From contig JAFGUM010000374.1 in assembly GCA_016938515.1 (NCBI GenBank), positions 1 to 11,062 on the forward strand: 11,062 bases of DNA, given 5' to 3'. The DNA is from Spirochaetales bacterium. Lineage in GTDB: Bacteria > Spirochaetota > Spirochaetia > Treponematales > UBA12059. The position numbers were made by a program, and so were the translations under genes. The notes under the pieces are model-generated. The model was not told the DNA's origin and did not search any database. It saw only the letters and a program-made list of their open reading frames with translations. Positions 489-10,998 of the stretch are shown here, piece after piece. The first letter of the stretch is position 1; every line of letters starts with the position of its first letter.

Positions 489-2033
489 TCAGTTCGTGTT
501 TGGCAACGGGTTTTCGCCAGAGTAACCCAGTACCCTGTTCTTGCCACTTCTCTTTGCTTGGTACATTGCCGTATCAGCGCGGCCTACAAGGGTGTCCATG
601 GTTTCTTTACCCGTATAGGTGGAAACGCCCACGCTGATGGTTATCGTCTTTTTTTCACTGACCTGATTTTTCTCAACGCTCTCCCTGAGTTTGTTCGCCG
701 CTATCATCGCCGCCTCGAAAGGGGTGTTCTGTAAAATTGTAATGAATTCTTCTCCCCCCCAGCGCCCGATCGTGTCTGTAGACCTGAGCGTCGACATCAT
801 GATAGTCGCCAGTTTTTTGAGTACCTTGTCGCCTTCTTCGTGGCCGTAGGTATCGTTTACCTGCTTGAAATCATCTATGTCGATGATCATGACCGACAGC
901 GGCGTTTTGTAGCGCTCGTATCGCTGCAGTTCGTGTTCCAGAACCGCCGAAATCGTTCGCCTGTTGCACAGGCCGGTAAGTGAATCTGTGCTGGACATGA
1001 TGTGCAGGCGCTTGCGCTCTGTATGTAAAAGGTACAGTGCCAGCACCAAACCGACGTATCCGAATGTGGATACTATCAGCAATGCGAAAAATCCTCCGCG
1101 CATCACTTCGTAGGCGGGGTCGTTATCCACCGAGATAATTACTCCAACGGGGTTTGCCGCAAGATTCTTTATATGGTTGACCAGCACCAATACTGGCTTC
1201 CCTGCCAATTCCGAGACGATGCCGCCGTCCCTGCCTTCGGCCAGCAGTTGTTCCAGGGCTTTGGATTTGTAGTTAAAGGCCTGGCTCATTGGATGATCCT
1301 GTGACAAGCCCCCATCTTCCAGGTACACTGTTGAAAAGGTGCTCTCTCTATAGTTGGACTGCTGAGATTCGAATACGGTGGATTCTACGATGTCCTTGCG
1401 GACGCCAAAGTAGTAGTCACAGTTCTTGAGGTCGCGTAGTCTGCTCAGGAATGACGACATGGCGAACGACACCTCAACCGAGCCGCAATGCTGGCCGTTC
1501 CAGAATAGTGGATACACGAAACGGTACCCGTTATAAATCCTGCCTTCCTCAAACGCCGTAATAGCGGTCTGGGTCTGGTTTACCGTTCGTACTGTCGAGC
1601 GGATGTCGCCGAGGTAGTCTCCGAACAGCTCGGGAGCGTGCATGCGCAGAAAGCTTGTGGTGTCAGGAAAATGAAAGTGCAGTTGCCTGAAGTGATACCG
1701 TTCCATCTGCTGATATACGGGGAGCATCAGACCGTACAGTTCAGTTCTGATCGCATCCCGTTCCGCTGCTGTTCCATTCCAGGCACGGGCAATCATCTCG
1801 TTGACCATTGCGGTATCAACGTCGCGCGAGAACGCGTACGATGAAAATATTTCCAGGTTGCGGATTATGGTTTCTATTCGGGAATCTAGAATAAGCAGAT
1901 TGTTTTCTACGTGCTCCTCTGTCTGGTTTTTAAAATTGATACTTAGTAGGCTTATGATCCCTACGAGTCCAGCACTCGCCAGCAACGTGATAACTACGTG
2001 TATGGCTGTCGTCTGTTTCGTCTTCATGCTCAT
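489..2033 (-). CDS. Membrane-bound diguanylate cyclase with periplasmic dCache sensor and GGEEF domain
   Basis: This 514-residue protein makes c-di-GMP from two GTP. A first membrane helix lies at about residues 10-32. A periplasmic sensor follows to about 310 and resembles the dCache_3 family, with blocks such as LHFHFPDTTSFLRMHAPE, EEGRIYNGYRFVYPLF and GSVEVSF. The second membrane helix is at about 312-337. The GGDEF domain (about 350-505) begins at SSTDSLTGLCNRR and has an intact GGEEF active site at 426-430. The product-inhibition site RxxD is present at R417-D420 with the standard five-residue spacing, so feedback inhibition by c-di-GMP is expected. The sensor ligand cannot be told from the sequence. 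The gene starts 12 bases after the methyltransferase stop. AGGGAAGG lies just upstream and could serve ATG 2033 or ATG 2027, the latter having better spacing. Confidence 0.95.
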   Translation of the reverse strand: MSMKTKQTTAIHVVITLLASAGLVGIISLLSINFKNQTEEHVENNLLILDSRIETIIRNLEIFSSYAFSRDVDTAMVNEMIARAWNGTAAERDAIRTELYGLMLPVYQQMERYHFRQLHFHFPDTTSFLRMHAPELFGDYLGDIRSTVRTVNQTQTAITAFEEGRIYNGYRFVYPLFWNGQHCGSVEVSFAMSSFLSRLRDLKNCDYYFGVRKDIVESTVFESQQSNYRESTFSTVYLEDGGLSQDHPMSQAFNYKSKALEQLLAEGRDGGIVSELAGKPVLVLVNHIKNLAANPVGVIISVDNDPAYEVMRGGFFALLIVSTFGYVGLVLALYLLHTERKRLHIMSSTDSLTGLCNRRTISAVLEHELQRYERYKTPLSVMIIDIDDFKQVNDTYGHEEGDKVLKKLATIMMSTLRSTDTIGRWGGEEFITILQNTPFEAAMIAANKLRESVEKNQVSEKKTITISVGVSTYTGKETMDTLVGRADTAMYQAKRSGKNRVLGYSGENPLPNTN

Positions 2034-2045
2034 TGCCTTCCCTGG

Positions 2046-2978
2046 TTAGCCCTCCATCGCTGGCACCAGCATCCACGTCAGTTCGTGTTTGTTGTGCCAT
2101 AGGTGCAGGATCCTGGATCCGCGTATCGACGCAAAATGCTCGACGGTGGGCCTATCCCATTCTTTGCCCTGCATTTTTACCGTGCAAATGAAGTTGCGCG
2201 CCATGCCCGATTCAATCCACATCGTTACCCAGTCGAACAGAGCTGGCGGGTAGCAGATAACATCGGAAAACAGCCAGTCGACAGGGCCGATATCTCCGGG
2301 CTTCAGCGTAAAGGCGTTGTGCTTTAAAAAGGTAACGCCAGGCAACTTCGCTACCGAGTCGTCCAGCGGTGCGCGGTCTACGGCTACTACTTCCGCGCCG
2401 AGGCCGGCAAGAGCCCAGGTCCAGCCCCCCGGGCTGGCTCCGGCGTCCAGGCAGCGCTGGCCGGGTGACGGGCGCGAGCCTGCCATCACGAGGGCTTCCC
2501 ACAGCTTTCTGTACGCACGGCTCGGCGGGCCTTCCTTGTCTTCGACAAAGGCGAATTCCCCATTGGGCCAGGGGCTGCTGCATGCCGCGGAAGCCAGCAT
2601 CGTACGCTCATCGAGGAGGGTAAAGGCGCCCATCGGAGCGCTTGGCGCGTCGAAAGGAAAGCTCCTGGGTTTGCCGGACAGGGGCGGCAGGGCTTCGGCT
2701 ATCAGCGTGGTTCGCCGCGCGAGCCGCGTGGGGTAGGGTGCCCAGTTCCGCTGCATGCCGCGGAGGGCTCGCGCGGCGTCTGAAATTGAGTCAAACTCCA
2801 GCGTAAAAGGCCGGATCCACACGTTTCTGGTCCAGTACGCGGCGCGAGCCGGTCCCATCACGGTAAGCAGGTCGCCATCGCGGCGGTACGGTGCTGGCAG
2901 TTCGCCTTCCAGGTGTTGCATAAAACCAGGCGCGGCGTGGTAGCACGCGGCGTCGAGGAAGCGTGGGTCGGTACTCAT
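2046..2978 (-). CDS. rlmM: RlmM-like 23S rRNA 2'-O-ribose methyltransferase (FtsJ/RrmJ fold)
   Basis: This 310-residue protein resembles E. coli RlmM, which methylates the 2'-OH of C2498 in 23S rRNA. The N-terminal part begins with CYHAAPGF, matching the start of RlmM's THUMP-like region. The C-terminal Rossmann domain has the SAM-binding loop D178-AGASPGGW and the K-D-K-E catalytic tetrad of RrmJ-type enzymes. By motif these are K158 (SRAYRKLWEAL), D239 (FSDVICYPP), K268 (CTVKMQGK) and E299 (HNKHELTWML). It is somewhat shorter than E. coli RlmM. I chose ATG 2978 because it overlaps the upstream stop as ATGA (translational coupling) and sits just before the conserved N-terminus. A GTG at 3023 with GGAG upstream would add 15 residues. 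The exact target nucleotide is inferred from family resemblance. Confidence 0.85.
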   Translation of the reverse strand: MSTDPRFLDAACYHAAPGFMQHLEGELPAPYRRDGDLLTVMGPARAAYWTRNVWIRPFTLEFDSISDAARALRGMQRNWAPYPTRLARRTTLIAEALPPLSGKPRSFPFDAPSAPMGAFTLLDERTMLASAACSSPWPNGEFAFVEDKEGPPSRAYRKLWEALVMAGSRPSPGQRCLDAGASPGGWTWALAGLGAEVVAVDRAPLDDSVAKLPGVTFLKHNAFTLKPGDIGPVDWLFSDVICYPPALFDWVTMWIESGMARNFICTVKMQGKEWDRPTVEHFASIRGSRILHLWHNKHELTWMLVPAMEG

Positions 2979-5833
2979 ATGAACTTGTGCGTCCTTGCGG
3001 CTTCGAGGAGGCGTTTGTTCCACGCGTTCTTCTCCATGTACAAGGCGCGCTGCGCCCTGTCTTCTATGCGTCCCGCTCGCTGCTGGAGTATCTTGAACGC
3101 CCTCGAGAGGACGGTTTGCTTGTCTACTGGCGGCTCGGAGAGCCGTTCTTCCAGGAGGTAGCAGAAGAAGCTGTACGTTCCCATGCCGGGGTTTATTCTG
3201 GAAGCCCGTTCTGCACGAGTCAGCGCGTGCAGTTCCACCGCGCAGTCTGGATTTCTCTCGTCGAGCCCCTGGGCAAACAGAGCGAGCGCGGTACGCAACT
3301 CGGCGAGTGGCGCGTCGGCAGAATCAAACCCGATCGACCTGCCTTCTATTTCCGAAAACAGGCTTGACCATTCAAAAGAATCCGGGGGGCCGAATGGCCG
3401 AACCAGCGGGTCTGCCGGTGCGTCAAGCCATATTCTGGCGTCGCGTGGCCTGCCCCTCAAAATGTCCAGCTCTCCCCTGAACACGCGAGCTTCGTCATCG
3501 GAGGCTTCTGCTTCAAGGTCGCTTGCCGCCGTATCAAACTCGCCCGCGTACGCAAGGGCTCTGGAGCGCCATATGCTGGCCCGTTGCGTTGCTTGGTGTA
3601 TGCCGTACCGGGTGGCTTGCTCCGCCAGCAAACTGAACCTCCTGGCGGCTTCATCATACGCGCCGAGCTCCAGGTCTATCCGGCCGCGAAGGGCTTCGAT
3701 GCCCAGAGCCATGTCTATCCTGAAAAGCCTGGAAGCCGATTCCGCTGCGCAGGCGGCAGCCTTGACTGCGCGGCCTAGCGCTCCGACTAAAAACTCCACG
3801 AGAGCCTTGGCGTACGCGGCCATCATGCGCTCGTATTCATCCCCTGCGGTTTCGGCCATCTCCTGCGCGTTGGTGAGGTAATCCGCCGCCTCGGTATGCT
3901 TGCCCAGCGCCAGCGAAGCCAGCCCCATCATGCGCTGGCTTCTCGCTTCAAGCTTGGGAGGCGCGCCCCGGCCCAAAGCCAGCAACGCCTCGCGCGATCC
4001 CTTGGACGCCCGGTCGGCGTCTCCGGTAGCGTAGGCGAGCTCCGCGCGCACCAGGGCTTTGACCGCGAGTGACCGAGGACCCGCGACGCGCTCCTCGGCG
4101 GCCGCGGCGGCGGCTTCGCTTGATGGCCTGTCCGCGGCCATCAGCGCGGACCAGAACCTGTATACGCAAGCCGAGGATGCGGACAGGAAGCCAGGATCGA
4201 CGACTCGGGGATTATCGGGGCGCAGTACGTCTTCGAAAAGACATTCGTAAACGATTCGTTCTTCGTCGGGTTGTTCACCCACGCGATGAAGAAATCCCAG
4301 GCTGGGACGAATCCTGCCGCTTCTGTACAGGCGCTTGAGGAATTCCGAGAAGCCGCGTTCCATTTCAGCCGCTACGCTCTGCCCGATAATTTTGATGATG
4401 GCAGGGGCGTCGAGTGGTTCCAGGGGGCCGTGTGAGTCATACGGTGCAATAAGCCCGACTCTGGCAAGTACGCTGCGGATGAGGGCTTCTCCCTCGGGTT
4501 TGAGCCCGAATCCGAGCATGTATTCTGAAAACTCGGCTTCTGACAGCACCTGATCGGAGAGGTGGATGCCGTACAGGTACAAGGCCGCCTCCGTTGGCAG
4601 CAGTTTGAGTGCCTGAGCCGTTCCGCTCGAGCCGCTTTCCCCTGATATGGCGCTGAACCTGGTTTTCAGGGTTTCCCTGATGGCACCAGTCGTCGAGCCG
4701 AGCGCTGCTTCTACCGACGATGGCCAATCATCGGCTCCCGCCAGTTCTACCGGAACGCGGGCGGCCCATGAGCCTGTCCAGGCTTCTGGCACGGTATCAT
4801 CTGACAGAGACAGGTAGCGCTCGGTTCCACGACCCGAGGACAGCCTGTCCGCTATGAGGGATAGCGCTTCCGCGGAGAACCGTTCCGGTGCGTCGCATAC
4901 CACGACCCCGCCGCGGTCTCCGAAGCCATCCAGCCATCTACCTATGTACGAAGCGCAGCCCCTGGAAACCGAATCTGGAGCTCCTTCAGCGAATGACGAG
5001 GCGAGGACAAAGTCAAAAGCGGACTCGGCCGCGTAGTCGCTCTGTACCGTAGCCGTGATATCAGGGGATGATTCGCCAGTTTCGGTATAGCCCGATCGCG
5101 TTGAGCCAGCCTGTACGGTGTCCTGGCTGGTCGTGCTGTCGCGCGCCGCGGCGATAGTTTCAAGGAGGGGCGAGAAGGGTAATGGCCTTGTTTTGATTCC
5201 TGAGAGAACCAGGAACCGGTCCTGGGTCAAGCCCGCGGCAGCAGTGAGAGCTCCGGTGGATCTGGCTCTGTGCCCGGCTTCAAGGTGCACGAGCCTCGGC
5301 CCATCACGCTCTGCCTTGGCGATGGCGCGGGCCATCGTTTCAGCCAGACGGGGCCTTTCAAACAGACGACCAGCGTTAGCATCCGCCAGTACGTGAGCGA
5401 ATTCCGGTTCAATCCATGAACCATCAGTATCGCCAAAGGCAAAATACGCAGAGAGAGCGCTTTTCGCCTCAGTGCTTAAGACGCACGCAAAGGCAGCGCT
5501 GTCGCGATAGCGGATCATCGTGTTGAAGGCGAGCGCTTCCTCCGCGGCTTCAGCCTGGTGGGCGCTTATCACGACACCGCGCAAGAAGGCTTTGTGCCTG
5601 GCAGTAGAGGCTACCGACCTCCTGAGAGCCTCGACCACCTGAAGGCCGTCGAAGGAACCAGTTAGCGGATACCCTAGTACGAGGGGGTTCTTCCGGTTTG
5701 CTATGGTACCGCCGAACGCCGAGGCGATAGATCTGAGATCTTCGACGAAGGCCCCGACTTCCCGAACACCGGAGCGCTCCAGCTGAGATAGATAATCTAT
5801 GGCGATACAGCAGTACAACATTGGGCATTCCAT
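2975..5833 (-). CDS. Large TPR protein with degenerate cyclase-like and ATPase-like domains
   Basis: I cannot name this protein (about 952 residues). Its layout recalls the class III cyclase-like/STAND ATPase/TPR signalling proteins. Residues about 5-150 loosely resemble a nucleotide cyclase domain (CCIAIDY near the start, later AFGGT) but lack its metal-binding aspartates. Residues about 170-400 look like an AAA_16-type region. Where a P-loop is expected (181-194, LVHLEAGHRARSTG) no GxxxxGK[ST] is present, while 310-314 (VVVCD) resembles a Walker B strand. From about 588 to 830 alanine-rich helix pairs resemble TPRs (for example GDADRASKGSREALLALG and GAYDEAARRFSLLAEQA). The basic C-terminus includes YMEKNAWNKRLLEAARTH. 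It is probably cytoplasmic, since I see no signal peptide or membrane helix. A scaffold role is inference. The start is uncertain: ATG 5833, 5821 (AGGATGG upstream), or 5926, which overlaps a plus-strand promoter. It heads the minus-strand operon. Confidence 0.75.
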   Translation of the reverse strand: MECPMLYCCIAIDYLSQLERSGVREVGAFVEDLRSIASAFGGTIANRKNPLVLGYPLTGSFDGLQVVEALRRSVASTARHKAFLRGVVISAHQAEAAEEALAFNTMIRYRDSAAFACVLSTEAKSALSAYFAFGDTDGSWIEPEFAHVLADANAGRLFERPRLAETMARAIAKAERDGPRLVHLEAGHRARSTGALTAAAGLTQDRFLVLSGIKTRPLPFSPLLETIAAARDSTTSQDTVQAGSTRSGYTETGESSPDITATVQSDYAAESAFDFVLASSFAEGAPDSVSRGCASYIGRWLDGFGDRGGVVVCDAPERFSAEALSLIADRLSSGRGTERYLSLSDDTVPEAWTGSWAARVPVELAGADDWPSSVEAALGSTTGAIRETLKTRFSAISGESGSSGTAQALKLLPTEAALYLYGIHLSDQVLSEAEFSEYMLGFGLKPEGEALIRSVLARVGLIAPYDSHGPLEPLDAPAIIKIIGQSVAAEMERGFSEFLKRLYRSGRIRPSLGFLHRVGEQPDEERIVYECLFEDVLRPDNPRVVDPGFLSASSACVYRFWSALMAADRPSSEAAAAAAEERVAGPRSLAVKALVRAELAYATGDADRASKGSREALLALGRGAPPKLEARSQRMMGLASLALGKHTEAADYLTNAQEMAETAGDEYERMMAAYAKALVEFLVGALGRAVKAAACAAESASRLFRIDMALGIEALRGRIDLELGAYDEAARRFSLLAEQATRYGIHQATQRASIWRSRALAYAGEFDTAASDLEAEASDDEARVFRGELDILRGRPRDARIWLDAPADPLVRPFGPPDSFEWSSLFSEIEGRSIGFDSADAPLAELRTALALFAQGLDERNPDCAVELHALTRAERASRINPGMGTYSFFCYLLEERLSEPPVDKQTVLSRAFKILQQRAGRIEDRAQRALYMEKNAWNKRLLEAARTHKFI

Positions 5834-5861
5834 CCTGTATTCTTTTTTTTCGCTCGTAAAG

Positions 5862-5867
5862 AGTATA
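5862..5867 (-). promoter_or_regulatory. Candidate -10 box for the minus-strand operon
   Basis: On the minus strand TATACT matches the sigma-70 -10 consensus at five of six positions and would start transcription near 5855. That is just upstream of the ATGs at 5833 and 5821 and favours them over ATG 5926. There is no convincing -35 at normal spacing, so the call is weak. Confidence 0.3.
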
Positions 5868-5918
5868 GTAGAAGAGTCAATCCGCTGGAAGACGCCGATA
5901 GAAGAATTACCTTTTTGC

Positions 5919-5948
5919 TTGACCATATTTTTTTTGCCGTGCTACACT
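5919..5948 (+). promoter_or_regulatory. Sigma-70-type promoter for the partner-switch operon
   Basis: TTGACC at 5919-5924 and TACACT at 5943-5948 are separated by 18 bases that include an eight-T tract. The -35 matches consensus at five of six positions and the -10 at four of six. Transcription would start near 5955, giving a leader of about 57 bases before ATG 6012. It overlaps the farthest-upstream possible start (5926) of the divergent gene. Confidence 0.5.
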
Positions 5949-6011: not shown

Positions 6012-7961
6012 ATGACCATTGAATCTTTCAACCTGATTATCGCTTCACCCCTCCTCGCCAGGTTGCTCGTCCTCGTATGCGGAGCCGCCGTTTTTGTCGC
6101 GCTGCGCAGGAAAGACACTGAGGGACAAGCAGGGTTCTTTCTGGCAATTATCCTCATCCTGGCGCTGCGGGATGGGCTTCTTTCGATGTTTGCCGTACCA
6201 GAGCTACGGTACCCCACCGATGTACTCTATGTTTCAGTTGTACTGTTCGTGTACGCGTCGCCTTTCAAGCCAGCCAGGCTTGCGCTCTTCGCGACGCTCG
6301 CGATAAACCTTGCGGCGATGGGGTTGTACGCGTCGCGTGTCTACGCGGGAGCCGTGGGTTTTATTCCTGTGTGGGCCTACGATCTGGTGCCCGTAGTAAA
6401 CGGCGTGCTTATCGCCGTCGTAGGCATTGCCAACAGGCGTGATCCTGAAGCGGGCGCCGCGCGTATGGCAGCGGCGACGTGGCCGTATGCTTCAGCGGCT
6501 ATTACCTTGTACGCCGCGCTGGTGCTGGCAGTAGGAGATGAAGCCACGCCGATACGCTGGCTGGTAGCGCCGGCATCGTATACCTGGCTTGTTTTCGCGG
6601 GGCTCGCGGGGTTGCGCTTGCACGATGACGAGACGCTGGCAGCCATAAACTACTACGAAGCGGCCATAGACTCCCTGTATAACCTGTCGTTCCGCGTGGG
6701 TACCGTGCTCAAGGGCAGTTTCTCAACCGAGGATGTGCTGGGTAGCATGAACGAGGTGCTGATCTCCGAAACGGGTGCCAGCGGCGGTACCATCTACCTG
6801 GTTGACGAATTCGACGACATTATTGTGGCCAAGGCGTACTCGGGAGCCTTTCCTCCCCCGTTTGCCCTGCCAGAGAGCCTGCCGCGAAAGGCAAACCGGG
6901 TAGAGTCGTACATGCGCCACGCGCAGTTCCGCCTCGGTGAGAATGTACTCGGCGAGGTCGCCAGAACCGGCAAGAACATATACGAGCCGGACGCTGCGAC
7001 CACCGATCGCGCGGCGGGCAACGGCGACGAGGATTTTCTGAGGCTAAGCTCGCTCATGGCCGTGCCACTGATGGTTGAAGAGAAGATAATCGGCGTAGCG
7101 GCGGTAGCCAAAAACGAGCCCGGCTCCCAGTTCAGCGAGGCAGACTTTGACCGCTTCAAGCTGTTGGCCAACTTTGGAACGCTCGCCGTAAGCAATTTCT
7201 TCTCTTTTCTTGAAGCCAACGAACGCAGCGGCATAGAAAAATCCGCTGGTATCGCGGCCGAGATACAGAGAACCATCATACCCAAAAAACTCCCCCAGTT
7301 TCCTACGCTCGGCATAGGCGCGTATACGACCCCTGCCCGCGGTGTATCTGGTGACTACTACGACGTTATCCGCACCCGGGGTGACAGGATAGTCGGTGTC
7401 GTGGGAGATGTCGCGGGCAAAGGGGTGTCCGCCGCGCTCATCATGGTGATGATACGTTCGATACTCCACCTTATCACCAATACAGACAAGGACATAGCAA
7501 CGGTGCTTGACTGGGTTAACCGCGGCATCACTGGCAAGATAGACATGGATCACTACGCCACGCTCGGCATTGTAGCCGTCAACATAGAGACGGGCGAGCT
7601 TGAGTACGCCAATGCGTCGCACCAGCCGCTGCTCGTCTACAGAAGGGCTTCTGACACGATAGAAACCATAGACATAAAGAGCGTACCCATCGGGGTTGAA
7701 CGCGCTACCGAGTATCATCGCAAGGCTTTGCGCCTGTACGATGGCGATATGGCTGTTATGTACACCGACGGTATGGTCGAGGCGATGAATGAGCAGGGCA
7801 AGCAGTTTGGCAGAAAAAGCATCAGCCAGACGATTATAAGGAACAGGGACTTGTCACCCAAGGACATTGTAGGGAAAATACGAACGGAGCTCGCGTCCTT
7901 CATCGGTAACGCCCGCCAGCACGATGACCAGACGATACTCATCTTCAAGATGAAGTTATAG
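6012..7961 (+). CDS. Membrane PP2C-type serine phosphatase, RsbU/SpoIIE family, with 7-TM and GAF regions
   Basis: This 649-residue protein should be the input phosphatase of a partner-switching circuit, removing phosphate from the STAS protein encoded next. Residues about 10-205 contain seven hydrophobic stretches by eye. A GAF-like domain spans about 224-395, with SGGTIYLVDE, LMAVPLMVEEKIIGVAAVAK and a following helix. A helical linker (AAEIQRTIIPKKLP, the usual entry to RsbU-type domains) leads to the phosphatase domain, about 420-649. Its metal-binding acidic positions look intact: D448 in SGDYYD, D466 in GDVAGKG, D586 in YTDG and D638/D639 in HDDQT. The enzyme should therefore be active. 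The signal, sensed by the membrane or GAF part, is unknown. ATG 6012 follows AAGGGA. The stop lies 17 bases before the STAS gene. Confidence 0.95.
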   Translation: MTIESFNLIIASPLLARLLVLVCGAAVFVALRRKDTEGQAGFFLAIILILALRDGLLSMFAVPELRYPTDVLYVSVVLFVYASPFKPARLALFATLAINLAAMGLYASRVYAGAVGFIPVWAYDLVPVVNGVLIAVVGIANRRDPEAGAARMAAATWPYASAAITLYAALVLAVGDEATPIRWLVAPASYTWLVFAGLAGLRLHDDETLAAINYYEAAIDSLYNLSFRVGTVLKGSFSTEDVLGSMNEVLISETGASGGTIYLVDEFDDIIVAKAYSGAFPPPFALPESLPRKANRVESYMRHAQFRLGENVLGEVARTGKNIYEPDAATTDRAAGNGDEDFLRLSSLMAVPLMVEEKIIGVAAVAKNEPGSQFSEADFDRFKLLANFGTLAVSNFFSFLEANERSGIEKSAGIAAEIQRTIIPKKLPQFPTLGIGAYTTPARGVSGDYYDVIRTRGDRIVGVVGDVAGKGVSAALIMVMIRSILHLITNTDKDIATVLDWVNRGITGKIDMDHYATLGIVAVNIETGELEYANASHQPLLVYRRASDTIETIDIKSVPIGVERATEYHRKALRLYDGDMAVMYTDGMVEAMNEQGKQFGRKSISQTIIRNRDLSPKDIVGKIRTELASFIGNARQHDDQTILIFKMKL

Positions 7962-7978: not shown

Positions 7979-8317
7979 ATGGAGCTGAAGATCCGCAAGA
8001 ACGGATTTAACTATATAATCGACGTTAATGGCGAGATGGACCTGTACAATTCCTACAAACTCAAGGAACTCGTCATGAAGATGCTCGAGAAGAAGGTCCA
8101 GCGTTTCATTATCAACCTTGAGAATGTGGACTATATAGATTCCAGCGGCATCGGCGCCCTCATCTATATTTGTTCTACAATAAAAAAGATGAACTTGCGA
8201 CTGATCATCACGAATATCCATGGCTCGGTAAAGAAAGTCATCGAGCTTACCAAACTAATGGGCTACTTCCCGATCACCAACAGCATCGAGGAAGCGATTC
8301 TGCAGATGGAAGACTAG
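7979..8317 (+). CDS. STAS-domain anti-sigma factor antagonist (RsbV/SpoIIAA type)
   Basis: This is a single STAS domain of 112 residues, the usual length for the family. The conserved phosphorylation loop is DYIDSSGIGAL, and by comparison with SpoIIAA the phosphorylated residue should be S56, the second serine. In such systems the kinase phosphorylates this serine to inactivate the protein and the PP2C phosphatase reverses it; the unphosphorylated form binds the kinase and releases its target. The gene lies between a matching phosphatase and a kinase-like gene, which strongly supports this role. The start ATG follows a good ribosome site (GAAAGGGG, seven bases upstream). The target released is not visible in the window. 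Confidence 0.95.
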   Translation: MELKIRKNGFNYIIDVNGEMDLYNSYKLKELVMKMLEKKVQRFIINLENVDYIDSSGIGALIYICSTIKKMNLRLIITNIHGSVKKVIELTKLMGYFPITNSIEEAILQMED

Positions 8318-8329
8318 GAGAAGAGAGCC

Positions 8330-8887
8330 ATGTCAGACAAGACGTACCTGAGCGAGATGAAGGAAATACGCGTAGACGAAAACAGCCCTTTGTTTGACAA
8401 GACTGGTATGCTGTACAAGGAATTTCCGTCTGATTACCGTCAGATACGATACTTTACGCTGCTCATCGTCCAATCTGCGCCGCTGGAAATAAAAGAGATA
8501 AACCTGCTGGAACAGCAGATCAGCGAGGTTATAAAGAACGCCGTAAAACACGGTAACCAGTGCGCCGTCGATAAAAAAGTCCGGGTCTGGTACTCCTTCG
8601 ATTCGACGCACGCGCACCTCATCGTCCAGGATCAGGGTGCCGGTTTCAAGGATCTGGAAAAATGGAACGAGTTCAACAAGAAGAGGCTTGAGATTCTGTC
8701 AGCGCAGGATTTTGAGAAACTGTCAGACTTCGTTTCTTTCCGAACGCTCAAGAGCGATGACAACGATGGCGGCAACGCGCTGTTTGCCGCTCTCGAGTAC
8801 TGGAACGGCGGCTTCGTGTTCAATGACTCACGCAACGCGGTCGCGATGCTCAAGAGCTTTCCACAAAAAAAACACGCGATAGGCTGA
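8330..8887 (+). CDS. HATPase-domain anti-sigma factor kinase-like protein (RsbW/SpoIIAB type), divergent
   Basis: This 185-residue protein fits the GHKL ATPase fold of RsbW/SpoIIAB and is the expected partner of the upstream STAS protein. The N box is SEVIKNAVKHGN, with E66 and N70 as catalytic and metal-binding positions. The G1 box is D101-QGAGF. The expected G2 box is altered to GGNALFAAL (147-155), where canonical proteins have GxGLxL. The ATP lid is longer and charged (about 106-145, rich in K, E and D). It ends with GGFVFNDSRNAVAMLKSF, matching the last two strands of the fold. It may still bind ATP and phosphorylate S56, or may only bind. AGGAG overlaps the STAS stop region, nine bases before the ATG. 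No sigma gene follows, so its target is unknown. Confidence 0.85.
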   Translation: MSDKTYLSEMKEIRVDENSPLFDKTGMLYKEFPSDYRQIRYFTLLIVQSAPLEIKEINLLEQQISEVIKNAVKHGNQCAVDKKVRVWYSFDSTHAHLIVQDQGAGFKDLEKWNEFNKKRLEILSAQDFEKLSDFVSFRTLKSDDNDGGNALFAALEYWNGGFVFNDSRNAVAMLKSFPQKKHAIG

Positions 8888-8909
8888 GTTACGGGTTCGA
8901 TACGCGTAT
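8865..8909 (-). terminator. Possible intrinsic terminator of the lipoprotein-PilZ operon, inside the end of the rsbW-like gene
   Basis: On the minus strand, ATACGCG (8909-8903) can pair with CGCGTGT (8878-8872), giving seven pairs with one G-U, directly followed by a run of T to 8865. The loop is long (24 bases), which weakens the call. The T run is the AAA-rich codons near the 3' end of the convergent gene. Confidence 0.35.
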
Positions 8910-10133
8910 TCCTTCCACTGAGTCGGAATCCTCGTCGGTGAAGGGTCTGCCGTACAGGTACTCGAACAGGAACCTGAAATCCTCCGGAGCCATGGACTTG
9001 AACTCGATGCCAAAATAACCCTCGCCGGCACCGACGTAGTGGCGGCGTATGGTTCCGCTCGCGTGTACCCGACGTTTGCTGGCGCTTAACCTGAGACTCA
9101 CCGCGGTGCCTTCCTTGAGGGCCTGGATGAGTTTCTGGTCGTTGCACGCGAAGAGCAAGCCTCCCGCCGAAACATCTACTACCTGTGTACCATAGCTTTG
9201 GTCCAGGCGTGGAGCGTCTTTGAAGTACCCGTGGAGCTTGAGCGACCAGGTAAACACCCGGGCGAACGCCAGAAACGTTTCCACCGCGTTAAGGTCGAAC
9301 GGCGGCTTTCCCGCCTGTTTGTTTATTACCGACGCGTACCCGATAGCGTAATCCTGGAATAAAAGCGGAACGATCAGCTCTGAAAGCACGCCAGAAGATC
9401 GTTTGGCCCTCTCGAATCTGGCTACTTCATCTTCTGCGAACTCACGATCCATACCGGTATCCACAAAATGCGCCAGAAAATCATCACGCGTCAGTATGGT
9501 GCGGTCTGCGAAAGGATCGCTGCGGGGAATCCCTGAAATAGCCGTGGGCAGGTAAAAGCACCGCCCGCTAGAAGCTACCAGGTGCTCCTCCAGATCCTCA
9601 GGCGATCGCTCCTTGAACATTACGATACCCCGGTCGCTTGCTATCGCCAGCGCTTTGCGCTCGAATTCGTTCATGAGGCCGCGGAGGTTGGCAGGATCAA
9701 ACTCAGACGAGACCTCTGGCTCCTTGGCCGGGTTGTAGGCTTCGCTGGCTGGAAAGTCCAGATCGTAGCGTTCACCGGCGAAGGAAAAGGACGCGGCCAG
9801 GTCGCCCGGAGGGGTAAGCCTGGCAAAACGCCTGCTCAGGTTTTTATACACCTTTTCTGGCATCTCCAGTACAAAACGCTTTTCTCCTGGCTCCAGTATC
9901 GAGGCTTTGAACGCTATGGTCTGGCCGCGTACGTTGTAGCGAAAATCGTACTGTATGCCTTTGCGGAGCAGTTGCAGCGGAACTTCGTGCGCGAACGTTA
10001 TCCTTGATCTGTCAACCTCGAGTATTCTGACCGTCCACTCGCTGCCTCCGGCGCTCATCGTTATAACCGAGCGCTCGCGCGCCGCTGTAGACAGCAGGAA
10101 TTCCCGCTCTATGCTTTTAACCAGGCTGGCCAT
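8889..10133 (-). CDS. YcgR-like PilZ protein with a GAF-like insert splitting the PilZ domain
   Basis: This 414-residue soluble protein should bind c-di-GMP. Residues about 1-95 form a beta-rich region like the N-terminal domain of YcgR. The PilZ RxxxR motif follows at R101-R105 (SRRFARL). The second PilZ motif, DxSxxG, is at D320-G325 (DVSAGG), and the rest of the barrel continues to about 395 (GYFGIEFKSM). In ordinary PilZ domains these motifs lie roughly 20-40 residues apart; here about 215 residues separate them. The later part of the insert (SELIVPLLFQDYAIGYASVINK, then a helix) looks like the C-terminal half of a GAF domain. The likely output is a c-di-GMP-dependent interaction, target unknown. 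ATG 10133 was chosen because GGAGG lies ten bases upstream; a GTG at 10199 has no ribosome site. A possible -10 TACAAT lies at 10162-10157. Confidence 0.85.
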   Translation of the reverse strand: MASLVKSIEREFLLSTAARERSVITMSAGGSEWTVRILEVDRSRITFAHEVPLQLLRKGIQYDFRYNVRGQTIAFKASILEPGEKRFVLEMPEKVYKNLSRRFARLTPPGDLAASFSFAGERYDLDFPASEAYNPAKEPEVSSEFDPANLRGLMNEFERKALAIASDRGIVMFKERSPEDLEEHLVASSGRCFYLPTAISGIPRSDPFADRTILTRDDFLAHFVDTGMDREFAEDEVARFERAKRSSGVLSELIVPLLFQDYAIGYASVINKQAGKPPFDLNAVETFLAFARVFTWSLKLHGYFKDAPRLDQSYGTQVVDVSAGGLLFACNDQKLIQALKEGTAVSLRLSASKRRVHASGTIRRHYVGAGEGYFGIEFKSMAPEDFRFLFEYLYGRPFTDEDSDSVEGIRVSNP

Positions 10134-10227: not shown

Positions 10228-10998
10228 CTATTCATCACCGTTGGCGGAGCCACTCCCAGTACGTGTACGCGTGTACGGATCCCAGCTTCCCCAATCGGCA
10301 TACTCCCGCAGCAACGCCTCGATATCGAGCTCAAGGTGCTCCACTACCCACGCGCCCTTGTCCCCAGGGCTTAGTAGAATGAGTCCCGTAGCCGCGCGCG
10401 GCACCGCTGCTTCCTGGGCATCGCCGACGCTGGCCAGGAGGCGCAGCGGCACGCTCATCGCGCCGCCTGGTACCGCCTGGCTTTCCCCGAAGCGAACGTC
10501 TCGTACCACCAGGGGTGGTCCTGCCGGCTCGTCATACAGGAGCCGGGAGATGGCAGCCATATCCGGGGAGAATATATCGTACGGCAAGGAGCCTTTCATA
10601 AAGCCCTCGCGTATCTTTGACAAGGTGGTAGACAGTTGCTGATTTGCGGGCAGAGAACTCAGCGTGCCAATTTCAAAGTCGGCGGCTGGCACCGCGTCAA
10701 ATGGACGATGTATCAGAAACCGGTCGTGTCCCGCGAGGCTGGACGACGGTGGCGATGTCACCGTCTTCTGCTGGCTGCGTTGAGGTGTCTTGGCATCTGC
10801 TGACTCCGGCTCCTGGGCTGGCGTCATGGGGACGGCTCTGGCTTCGGCTTGTGGCGCGGGTTCTGGCTGCGCGTTTTGCGTAGCCGGCGTTTCCGCGGCA
10901 GCCGGGCGACGCGAGCACGAGCTGGCAGTGACGGCCAAGCACAGCGACACACCAGCGAGAGTCATGATGAGGATACGAGATGATGGAAGACGCGTCAT
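10228..10998 (-). CDS. Putative lipoprotein of unknown function
   Basis: I do not recognise this 256-residue protein. The N-terminus has arginines at 3 and 8, a hydrophobic core (ILIMTLAGVSLCLAVTA) and Cys28 in ASSC, a relaxed lipobox of the kind spirochaetes use, so export and lipid attachment are likely. Residues about 29-85 are a low-complexity linker rich in Ala, Pro, Glu and Gln, which would hold the folded part away from the membrane. The folded part (about 88-256) has blocks such as RFLIHRPFDAVP, SLPYDIFSPDMAAISRLL and GAWVVEHLELDIEALLREYA. It ends in a Thr/Arg/Gly/Ser-rich tail. Upstream of ATG 10998 there is no ribosome site, and the candidate promoter would start the RNA at about the ATG, so translation may be leaderless. 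It lies upstream of the PilZ gene, 94 bases away, probably in the same operon. Confidence 0.75.
   Translation of the reverse strand: MTRLPSSRILIMTLAGVSLCLAVTASSCSRRPAAAETPATQNAQPEPAPQAEARAVPMTPAQEPESADAKTPQRSQQKTVTSPPSSSLAGHDRFLIHRPFDAVPAADFEIGTLSSLPANQQLSTTLSKIREGFMKGSLPYDIFSPDMAAISRLLYDEPAGPPLVVRDVRFGESQAVPGGAMSVPLRLLASVGDAQEAAVPRAATGLILLSPGDKGAWVVEHLELDIEALLREYADWGSWDPYTRTRTGSGSANGDE

Follow-up and report, generated by a model that had tools for sequence, protein, structure and literature searches.

The window, by which we mean the whole stretch of 11,062 nucleotides analysed here, belongs to a fragmented spirochaete assembly (2.55 Mb in 605 contigs) whose closest named relatives are Spirochaetes MAGs such as HGW-Spirochaetae-3 (79% identity); names of homologues such as Rectinemataceae suggest to us that its order is Treponematales. 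On its minus strand, positions 8889..10133 hold a single open frame of 414 aa plus stop, and the product is referred to here as P0001. Three genes on the plus strand converge with it: one for a 649-aa GAF and SpoIIE phosphatase protein at 6012..7961 (PF07228, E 3.5e-43; PF13185, E 2.8e-13), one for a 112-aa STAS protein at 7979..8317 (PF01740, E 1.3e-22) and one for a 185-aa HATPase_c_2 protein at 8330..8887 (PF13581, E 5e-8), which we take to be RsbW-like. The minus strand also carries a gene for a 256-aa lipoprotein-like protein (10228-10998) just upstream of the P0001 gene, and homologues with 27-38% identity occupy the same place in close relatives. A protein of 983 aa, showing a weak match to MalT-like TPR, is encoded at 2975-5926 (minus strand). 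In the window the SpoIIE-STAS-HATPase cassette separates its gene from the P0001 gene, whereas in five more distant loci (L094, L100, L101, L107 and L108) the corresponding gene is followed on the same strand by one for a homologue of this TPR protein, and in L100 the two frames adjoin. A dCache_3-GGDEF diguanylate cyclase is encoded at 489-2033 (minus strand), at a distance of about 7 kb from the P0001 gene; it did not turn up among the gene neighbours listed for close relatives.

The order of parts along P0001, as supported by profile matches and covariation, appears to be a PilZN domain, the RxxxR motif with the first PilZ strand, a GAF-like insert, and the remaining PilZ domain with DxSxxG. 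The PilZN (YcgR N-terminal) domain is predicted from profile matches at about residues 1-95 (9849..10133). It is followed by the c-di-GMP motif R101xxxR105 (9819..9833) and the putative first PilZ strand, at about residues 108-117 (9783..9812). The inserted domain, named GAZ in the published family to which we assign P0001, spans about residues 128-303 (9225..9752), both boundaries being approximate, and includes the best Pfam GAF match (PF01590, residues 209-293, 9255..9509, E 0.023, below the cut-off). The rest of the PilZ barrel, together with a C-terminal segment, covers residues 311-396 (8946..9203; PF07238, E 2.6e-7), in which lie the second motif, D320xS322xxG325 (9159..9176), and residues 346-355 (9069..9098), the partner of the first strand in the covariation described below. 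The Pfam PilZ match scores 31.4 bits (cut-off 22.5) and runs over residues 311-394, corresponding to profile positions 20-101 of 102; because it begins at position 20, the start of the domain is absent from the C-terminal piece. An earlier note on this DNA had named both c-di-GMP motifs and a gap of about 215 residues between them; R101/R105 and D320/S322/G325 lie exactly at the residues it gave, and we count 214 residues from R105 to D320.

This layout, which the earlier note could not place in the literature, had already been described for spirochaetes, and P0001 is a member of the published YcgR-GAZ (DUF1577) family (PMC11800159, ACS Omega, January 2025). According to the available text of that paper, the insert, there named GAZ, is sited after the first strand and RxxxR, in agreement with the earlier note's description of one strand past RxxxR followed by the insert. 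LIC_11920 of Leptospira interrogans, the only member for which that text gives binding and oligomeric-state data, binds c-di-GMP with a measured stoichiometry of 2:1, loses binding when R112/R116 are exchanged for alanine, and is a monomer by SEC-MALS (PMC11800159). It has the same PilZN domain, RxxxR, first strand, GAF-like insert and remaining PilZ domain with DxSxxG as P0001; the latter differs in coming from a Treponematales-like branch and in being only weakly matched by Pfam DUF1577 (residues 154-285, 19.7 bits against a cut-off of 25, E 5e-4). Members from Spirochaetales listed there include Treponema primitia, Salinispira, Marispirochaeta and Brucepastera, the family is said to be confined to Spirochaetota (PMC11800159), and a 2026 paper repeats it for L. 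interrogans (PMC12943098). Searching 84,980 species genomes with two short patterns of close relatives, we found 39 loci, 37 titled spirochaete and two titled 'bacterium'. Among the 350 homologues listed below, many of them without a name, one (P0107) has a non-spirochaete label; it is 51% identical and comes from a TPA MAG under the label Magnetospirillaceae, which may reflect mislabelling or a mixed bin.

Canonical YcgR of E. coli (5y6f) shares PilZN and PilZ with both motifs and has no insert. The profile of our alignment A1 matches it weakly, first across profile positions 14-109, with a whole-sequence E of 0.0061, and again across 303-343 at 0.5 bits, too weak to count alone, with 4 chain residues between the two matches. 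In hhalign comparison with eight uninterrupted PilZ relatives, P0001 aligned over residues 26-108 (72%) and 312-396 (96.5%) and the insert was unmatched. A PilZN domain at the N-terminus is thus indicated by profiles, although Pfam PF12945 matches only four of 42 aligned proteins, P0001 not among them; DUF1577 matches 17 of the 42, P0001 included, at E 0.01 or better. Against solved structures, a phmmer search with P0001 alone gave chance-level matches (best E 0.2) and the A3 profile gave no match. A similar insertion site is found in the tetrameric PilZ protein XCC6012 (3RQA), with two helices between strands one and two, but there the insert is a two-helix segment of 57 residues, the c-di-GMP motif is partial and the protein is a tetramer, as far as the available text describes it (PMC3131395).

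Three database searches gave 350 homologues including P0001 (the best 120 of 155 matches, all 110 of 110, and the best 120 of 322). After proteins from fetched loci had been added, a filter of 330-480 aa left 461, and removal of identical ones left 426. All 426 have arginine at both R101 and R105. At position 320, D occurs in 359, N in 51 and E in 16; S322 is conserved in 424 and G325 in 425, so that RxxxR and (D/N)xSxxG are both retained. The spacing from R105 to position 320 is 177-220 across all 426 (median 214), against 27-43 in the eight uninterrupted PilZ proteins, which were picked from 30 PilZ loci of relatives. Motifs and wide spacing thus hold in nearly all homologues, and the long spacing is more than chance.

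Whether the two PilZ pieces form one unit was addressed by covariation restricted to the PilZ columns, residues 95-130 and 297-400, with 206 effective sequences; a full-length mean-field coupling analysis was noisy. Four antiparallel bands across the insert (113/350, 111/352, 112/351 and 114/349) ranked 1-4 of 5,980 seven-residue bands, with z 4.1-4.7, and together cover residues 108-117 and 346-355. Within the C-terminal piece, band 349/356 was the strongest, as expected for adjacent strands joined in a hairpin. The band across the insert kept rank 1 for the full set under all four penalty and weighting settings, and likewise in a low-gap subset (289 sequences), and was rank 2 with the low-gap sequences less than 60% identical to P0001 (239 sequences). 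With the 137 gap-rich homologues by themselves it disappeared, falling to rank 233 of 5,830 (effective number 71); of these 137, 135 originate from DUF1577-type sets. Hence, in the branch of P0001 the two pieces act as one unit, and for the divergent branch the test is silent; we read the pairing of 108-117 with 346-355 in this sense without assigning it to a known PilZ topology. Residues 299-307 were considered as an alternative first PilZ strand, the weak alignment to E. coli YcgR resuming at 303, and were set aside as the top covariation bands favour 108-117. The interruption of PilZ after its first strand, which the earlier note had proposed, is thus backed by covariation, by profile comparison and by the published family.

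The insert itself is related to GAF domains, a kinship that profile–profile comparison supports. A profile of residues 128-303 matched the GAF domain of the SpoIIE-type protein in the window with 93.7% hhalign probability (E 2e-7), and six other regions of the window (catalytic and N-terminal parts of the SpoIIE-type protein, HATPase, STAS, FtsJ and TPR) gave 0.0-2.1%; the resemblance to a GAF domain that the earlier note had seen at the end of the insert therefore appears sound. Pfam GAF (PF01590) scores 15.6 bits on P0001, under the curated cut-off of 22.4, and at a threshold of E 0.01 it matches three of the 42 aligned proteins. Among the couplings within the insert is the antiparallel pair 170/269 (z 4.2). 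The first and last strands of the GAF sheet pair, and such a coupling is what this topology would lead one to expect.

Two readings that depart from this architecture, or add to it, bear on the barrel and on the insert. The C-terminal PilZ domain could be complete by itself, RxxxR belonging to a separate domain and the spacing being an accident of tandem domains. Pfam does find PilZ in the C-terminal part alone, and since some PilZ matches in relatives outside YcgR-GAZ also begin as late as profile position 12-22, a late start does not by itself prove a split. However, the PilZ match of P0001 begins at profile position 20 of 102, compared with 1-7 for many of those in relatives, the invariance of RxxxR in all 426 homologues is hard on a separate domain, and covariation joins the two pieces; we disfavour this reading and regard it as highly improbable. 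GAZ might, alternatively, be a working sensor, along the lines the earlier note had suggested, in which a small ligand in its pocket alters c-di-GMP affinity directly through the shared barrel. Its relation to GAF domains and its position within the PilZ barrel speak for this, as do six positions (P178, E183, G190, P203, P256 and G265) identical in 42 of 42 aligned proteins. E183 is also conserved in 316 of 322 homologues of a wider set that have a residue there. However, P256 and G265, on our reading, fit GAF core positions, and P178, G190 and P203 are variable in the wider set. In the published GAZ model, moreover, several GAF elements are missing and the pocket is open and exposed to solvent, and its authors state that the functional significance of the inserted domain is unknown (PMC11800159, available text); no GAZ ligand was found in the open-licence literature as far as its text was available. 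A sensor of this kind seems to us rather unlikely.

A further possibility is that P0001 binds c-di-GMP and acts on a target other than the motor, for instance on the partner-switching cassette of SpoIIE, STAS and HATPase proteins encoded convergently. Outside the window, 26 unique A-type loci extend 3.5 kb or more downstream of the gene; STAS is convergent in 24 of them (exceptions L066 and L069) and HATPase in 23 (exceptions L055, L066 and L069). Across these loci STAS is 79-96% identical where YcgR-GAZ is 34-79% identical, which we counted for a link to the switch, and the SpoIIE-type protein carries a GAF domain of its own. Against it, convergent genes do not make an operon, the cassette was not found beside the gene in L066 and L069 or, within the sensitivity of tblastn, in nine loci of greater divergence (27-33% identity) that likewise reach 3.5 kb or more downstream, and YcgR-GAZ also lies near the flagellar cluster in families f1 and f4. 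We consider such a target unlikely.

The distribution of YcgR-GAZ was compared with those of FliG and GGDEF. YcgR-GAZ was matched in 37 of 58 relatives. For the 56 common to the YcgR-GAZ, PilZ, FliG and GGDEF searches, a clear FliG was present in 48, and YcgR-GAZ in 36 of these 48 and in none of the eight relatives without clear FliG; GGDEF was present in all 56. The eight all belong to family f4 (G030, G033, G036, G038, G044, G047, G049 and G052), seven without FliG and one, G047, with a single weak match at 9e-5. They yielded no PilZ match of any kind and 5-13 GGDEF matches each, so another type of c-di-GMP receptor may act there. The four FliG-positive f4 genomes all have YcgR-GAZ, and FliG is present with YcgR-GAZ absent in family f3 (11 of 11) and in the f5 genome G045. 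In a phylum sample of 296 genomes, FliG was found in 278, and 12 of the 18 lacking it make up family f13; none of these 12 was matched by the A5 profile at 1e-6. Four of the other six FliG-less genomes (54-88% complete) have the family (G102, G170, G247 and G261), and as the A5 profile spans the whole protein its weakest rows (e.g. G175 at 1.2e-7 and G079 at 1.9e-7) may be canonical YcgR. YcgR-GAZ is absent from the near-complete genomes without clear FliG. As the eight FliG-less relatives fall in one family they may represent a single loss, and f13 may be a second; with apparently two clades having lost both FliG and YcgR-GAZ, the co-loss is suggestive and not a tally of many events. The distribution of YcgR-GAZ is thus suggestive of a link to flagella.

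YcgR-GAZ comprises an A lineage, which includes P0001, and a B lineage. In a tree of 80 sequences, 15 from the B lineage group together as a single clade (support 1.0); three sequences from f5 (L033, L036 and L040) fall within the A lineage, so the rows labelled 'B' in alignment A1 include three A-lineage proteins. The second paralogue of the genome of the window (G000) is present as two pieces at contig ends (L048 on C469 and L049 on C390), probably split by an assembly gap. Distances to fliG were taken from start to start for the best-scoring FliG where both genes share a contig. The A paralogue lies 24.5-26.4 kb from fliG in seven of seven f1/f4 genomes (G002, G007, G012, G016, G019, G020 and G028), and the B paralogue 32-38 kb from it in 11 (G002, G003, G005, G007, G012-G016, G020 and G028), a count that leaves out G041, where a FliG fragment at a contig end is 42 kb from B. 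In G007, for which 10 proteins were scanned of the 58 frames listed for L212-L215, the stretch from A to B encodes FliM, a FliN-type protein, MotB, MotA, FlgE and an apparent FliI-type ATPase, together with a ParA-type protein, a sigma-70 factor and a rod protein, and a putative MurG-type glycosyltransferase lies one frame from B; the names FliI and MurG are our reading of Pfam matches. In three f5 genomes (G031, G034 and G053) fliG and YcgR-GAZ are hundreds of kb or more apart, hence linkage is not required for YcgR-GAZ to be retained, and in the fragmented genome of the window the two genes are on different contigs, so that linkage is not visible there. The published survey found flagellar genes rare within seven genes either side of YcgR-GAZ (PMC11800159, available text), whereas the distance of about 25 kb in f1/f4 relatives exceeds that range; PilZ-gene context is described as uninformative in Leptospira in what was available of PMC12943098. 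We found no report of linkage between fliG and YcgR-GAZ in the open-licence PMC literature.

Taken as a whole, we lean towards P0001 being a YcgR-GAZ member with a two-piece PilZ barrel that binds c-di-GMP and most likely acts at the motor like YcgR, GAZ probably having a tuning role. The first PilZ strand and the remaining PilZ domain would fold together into one barrel, and c-di-GMP would bind at the RxxxR/DxSxxG site, as published for one Leptospira member. On binding, PilZN and PilZ would shift in relative position, and the ligand-bound protein would most likely act at the flagellar motor through its PilZN and PilZ surfaces, a role we infer from YcgR, from the co-loss with flagella and from gene location. 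GAZ, anchored in the barrel at the first strand, would probably tune binding or the choice of partner; an interaction partner of YcgR-GAZ was not found in the open-licence literature, as far as its text was available. A bolder version, in which the two paralogues of Treponematales are dedicated motor regulators flanking the flagellar cluster and a second input through GAZ gates braking by c-di-GMP, possibly tied to the SpoIIE-STAS-HATPase switch, we hold to be quite unlikely.

The architecture itself had already been published, on the available text of PMC11800159, and what this analysis adds is flagellar context for the Treponematales-like clade. The covariation lends independent support to the view that a c-di-GMP barrel can accommodate a sensor-like domain and stay intact, and the YcgR-GAZ family gains members from uncultured Treponematales-like genomes. 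A pointer to the motor was not found in Leptospira in either published study, as far as the available text goes (PMC11800159, PMC12943098); for the Treponematales-like clade, the co-loss with flagella where diguanylate cyclases are kept, together with the steady distance to fliG in f1/f4 genomes, provides one that can be tested.
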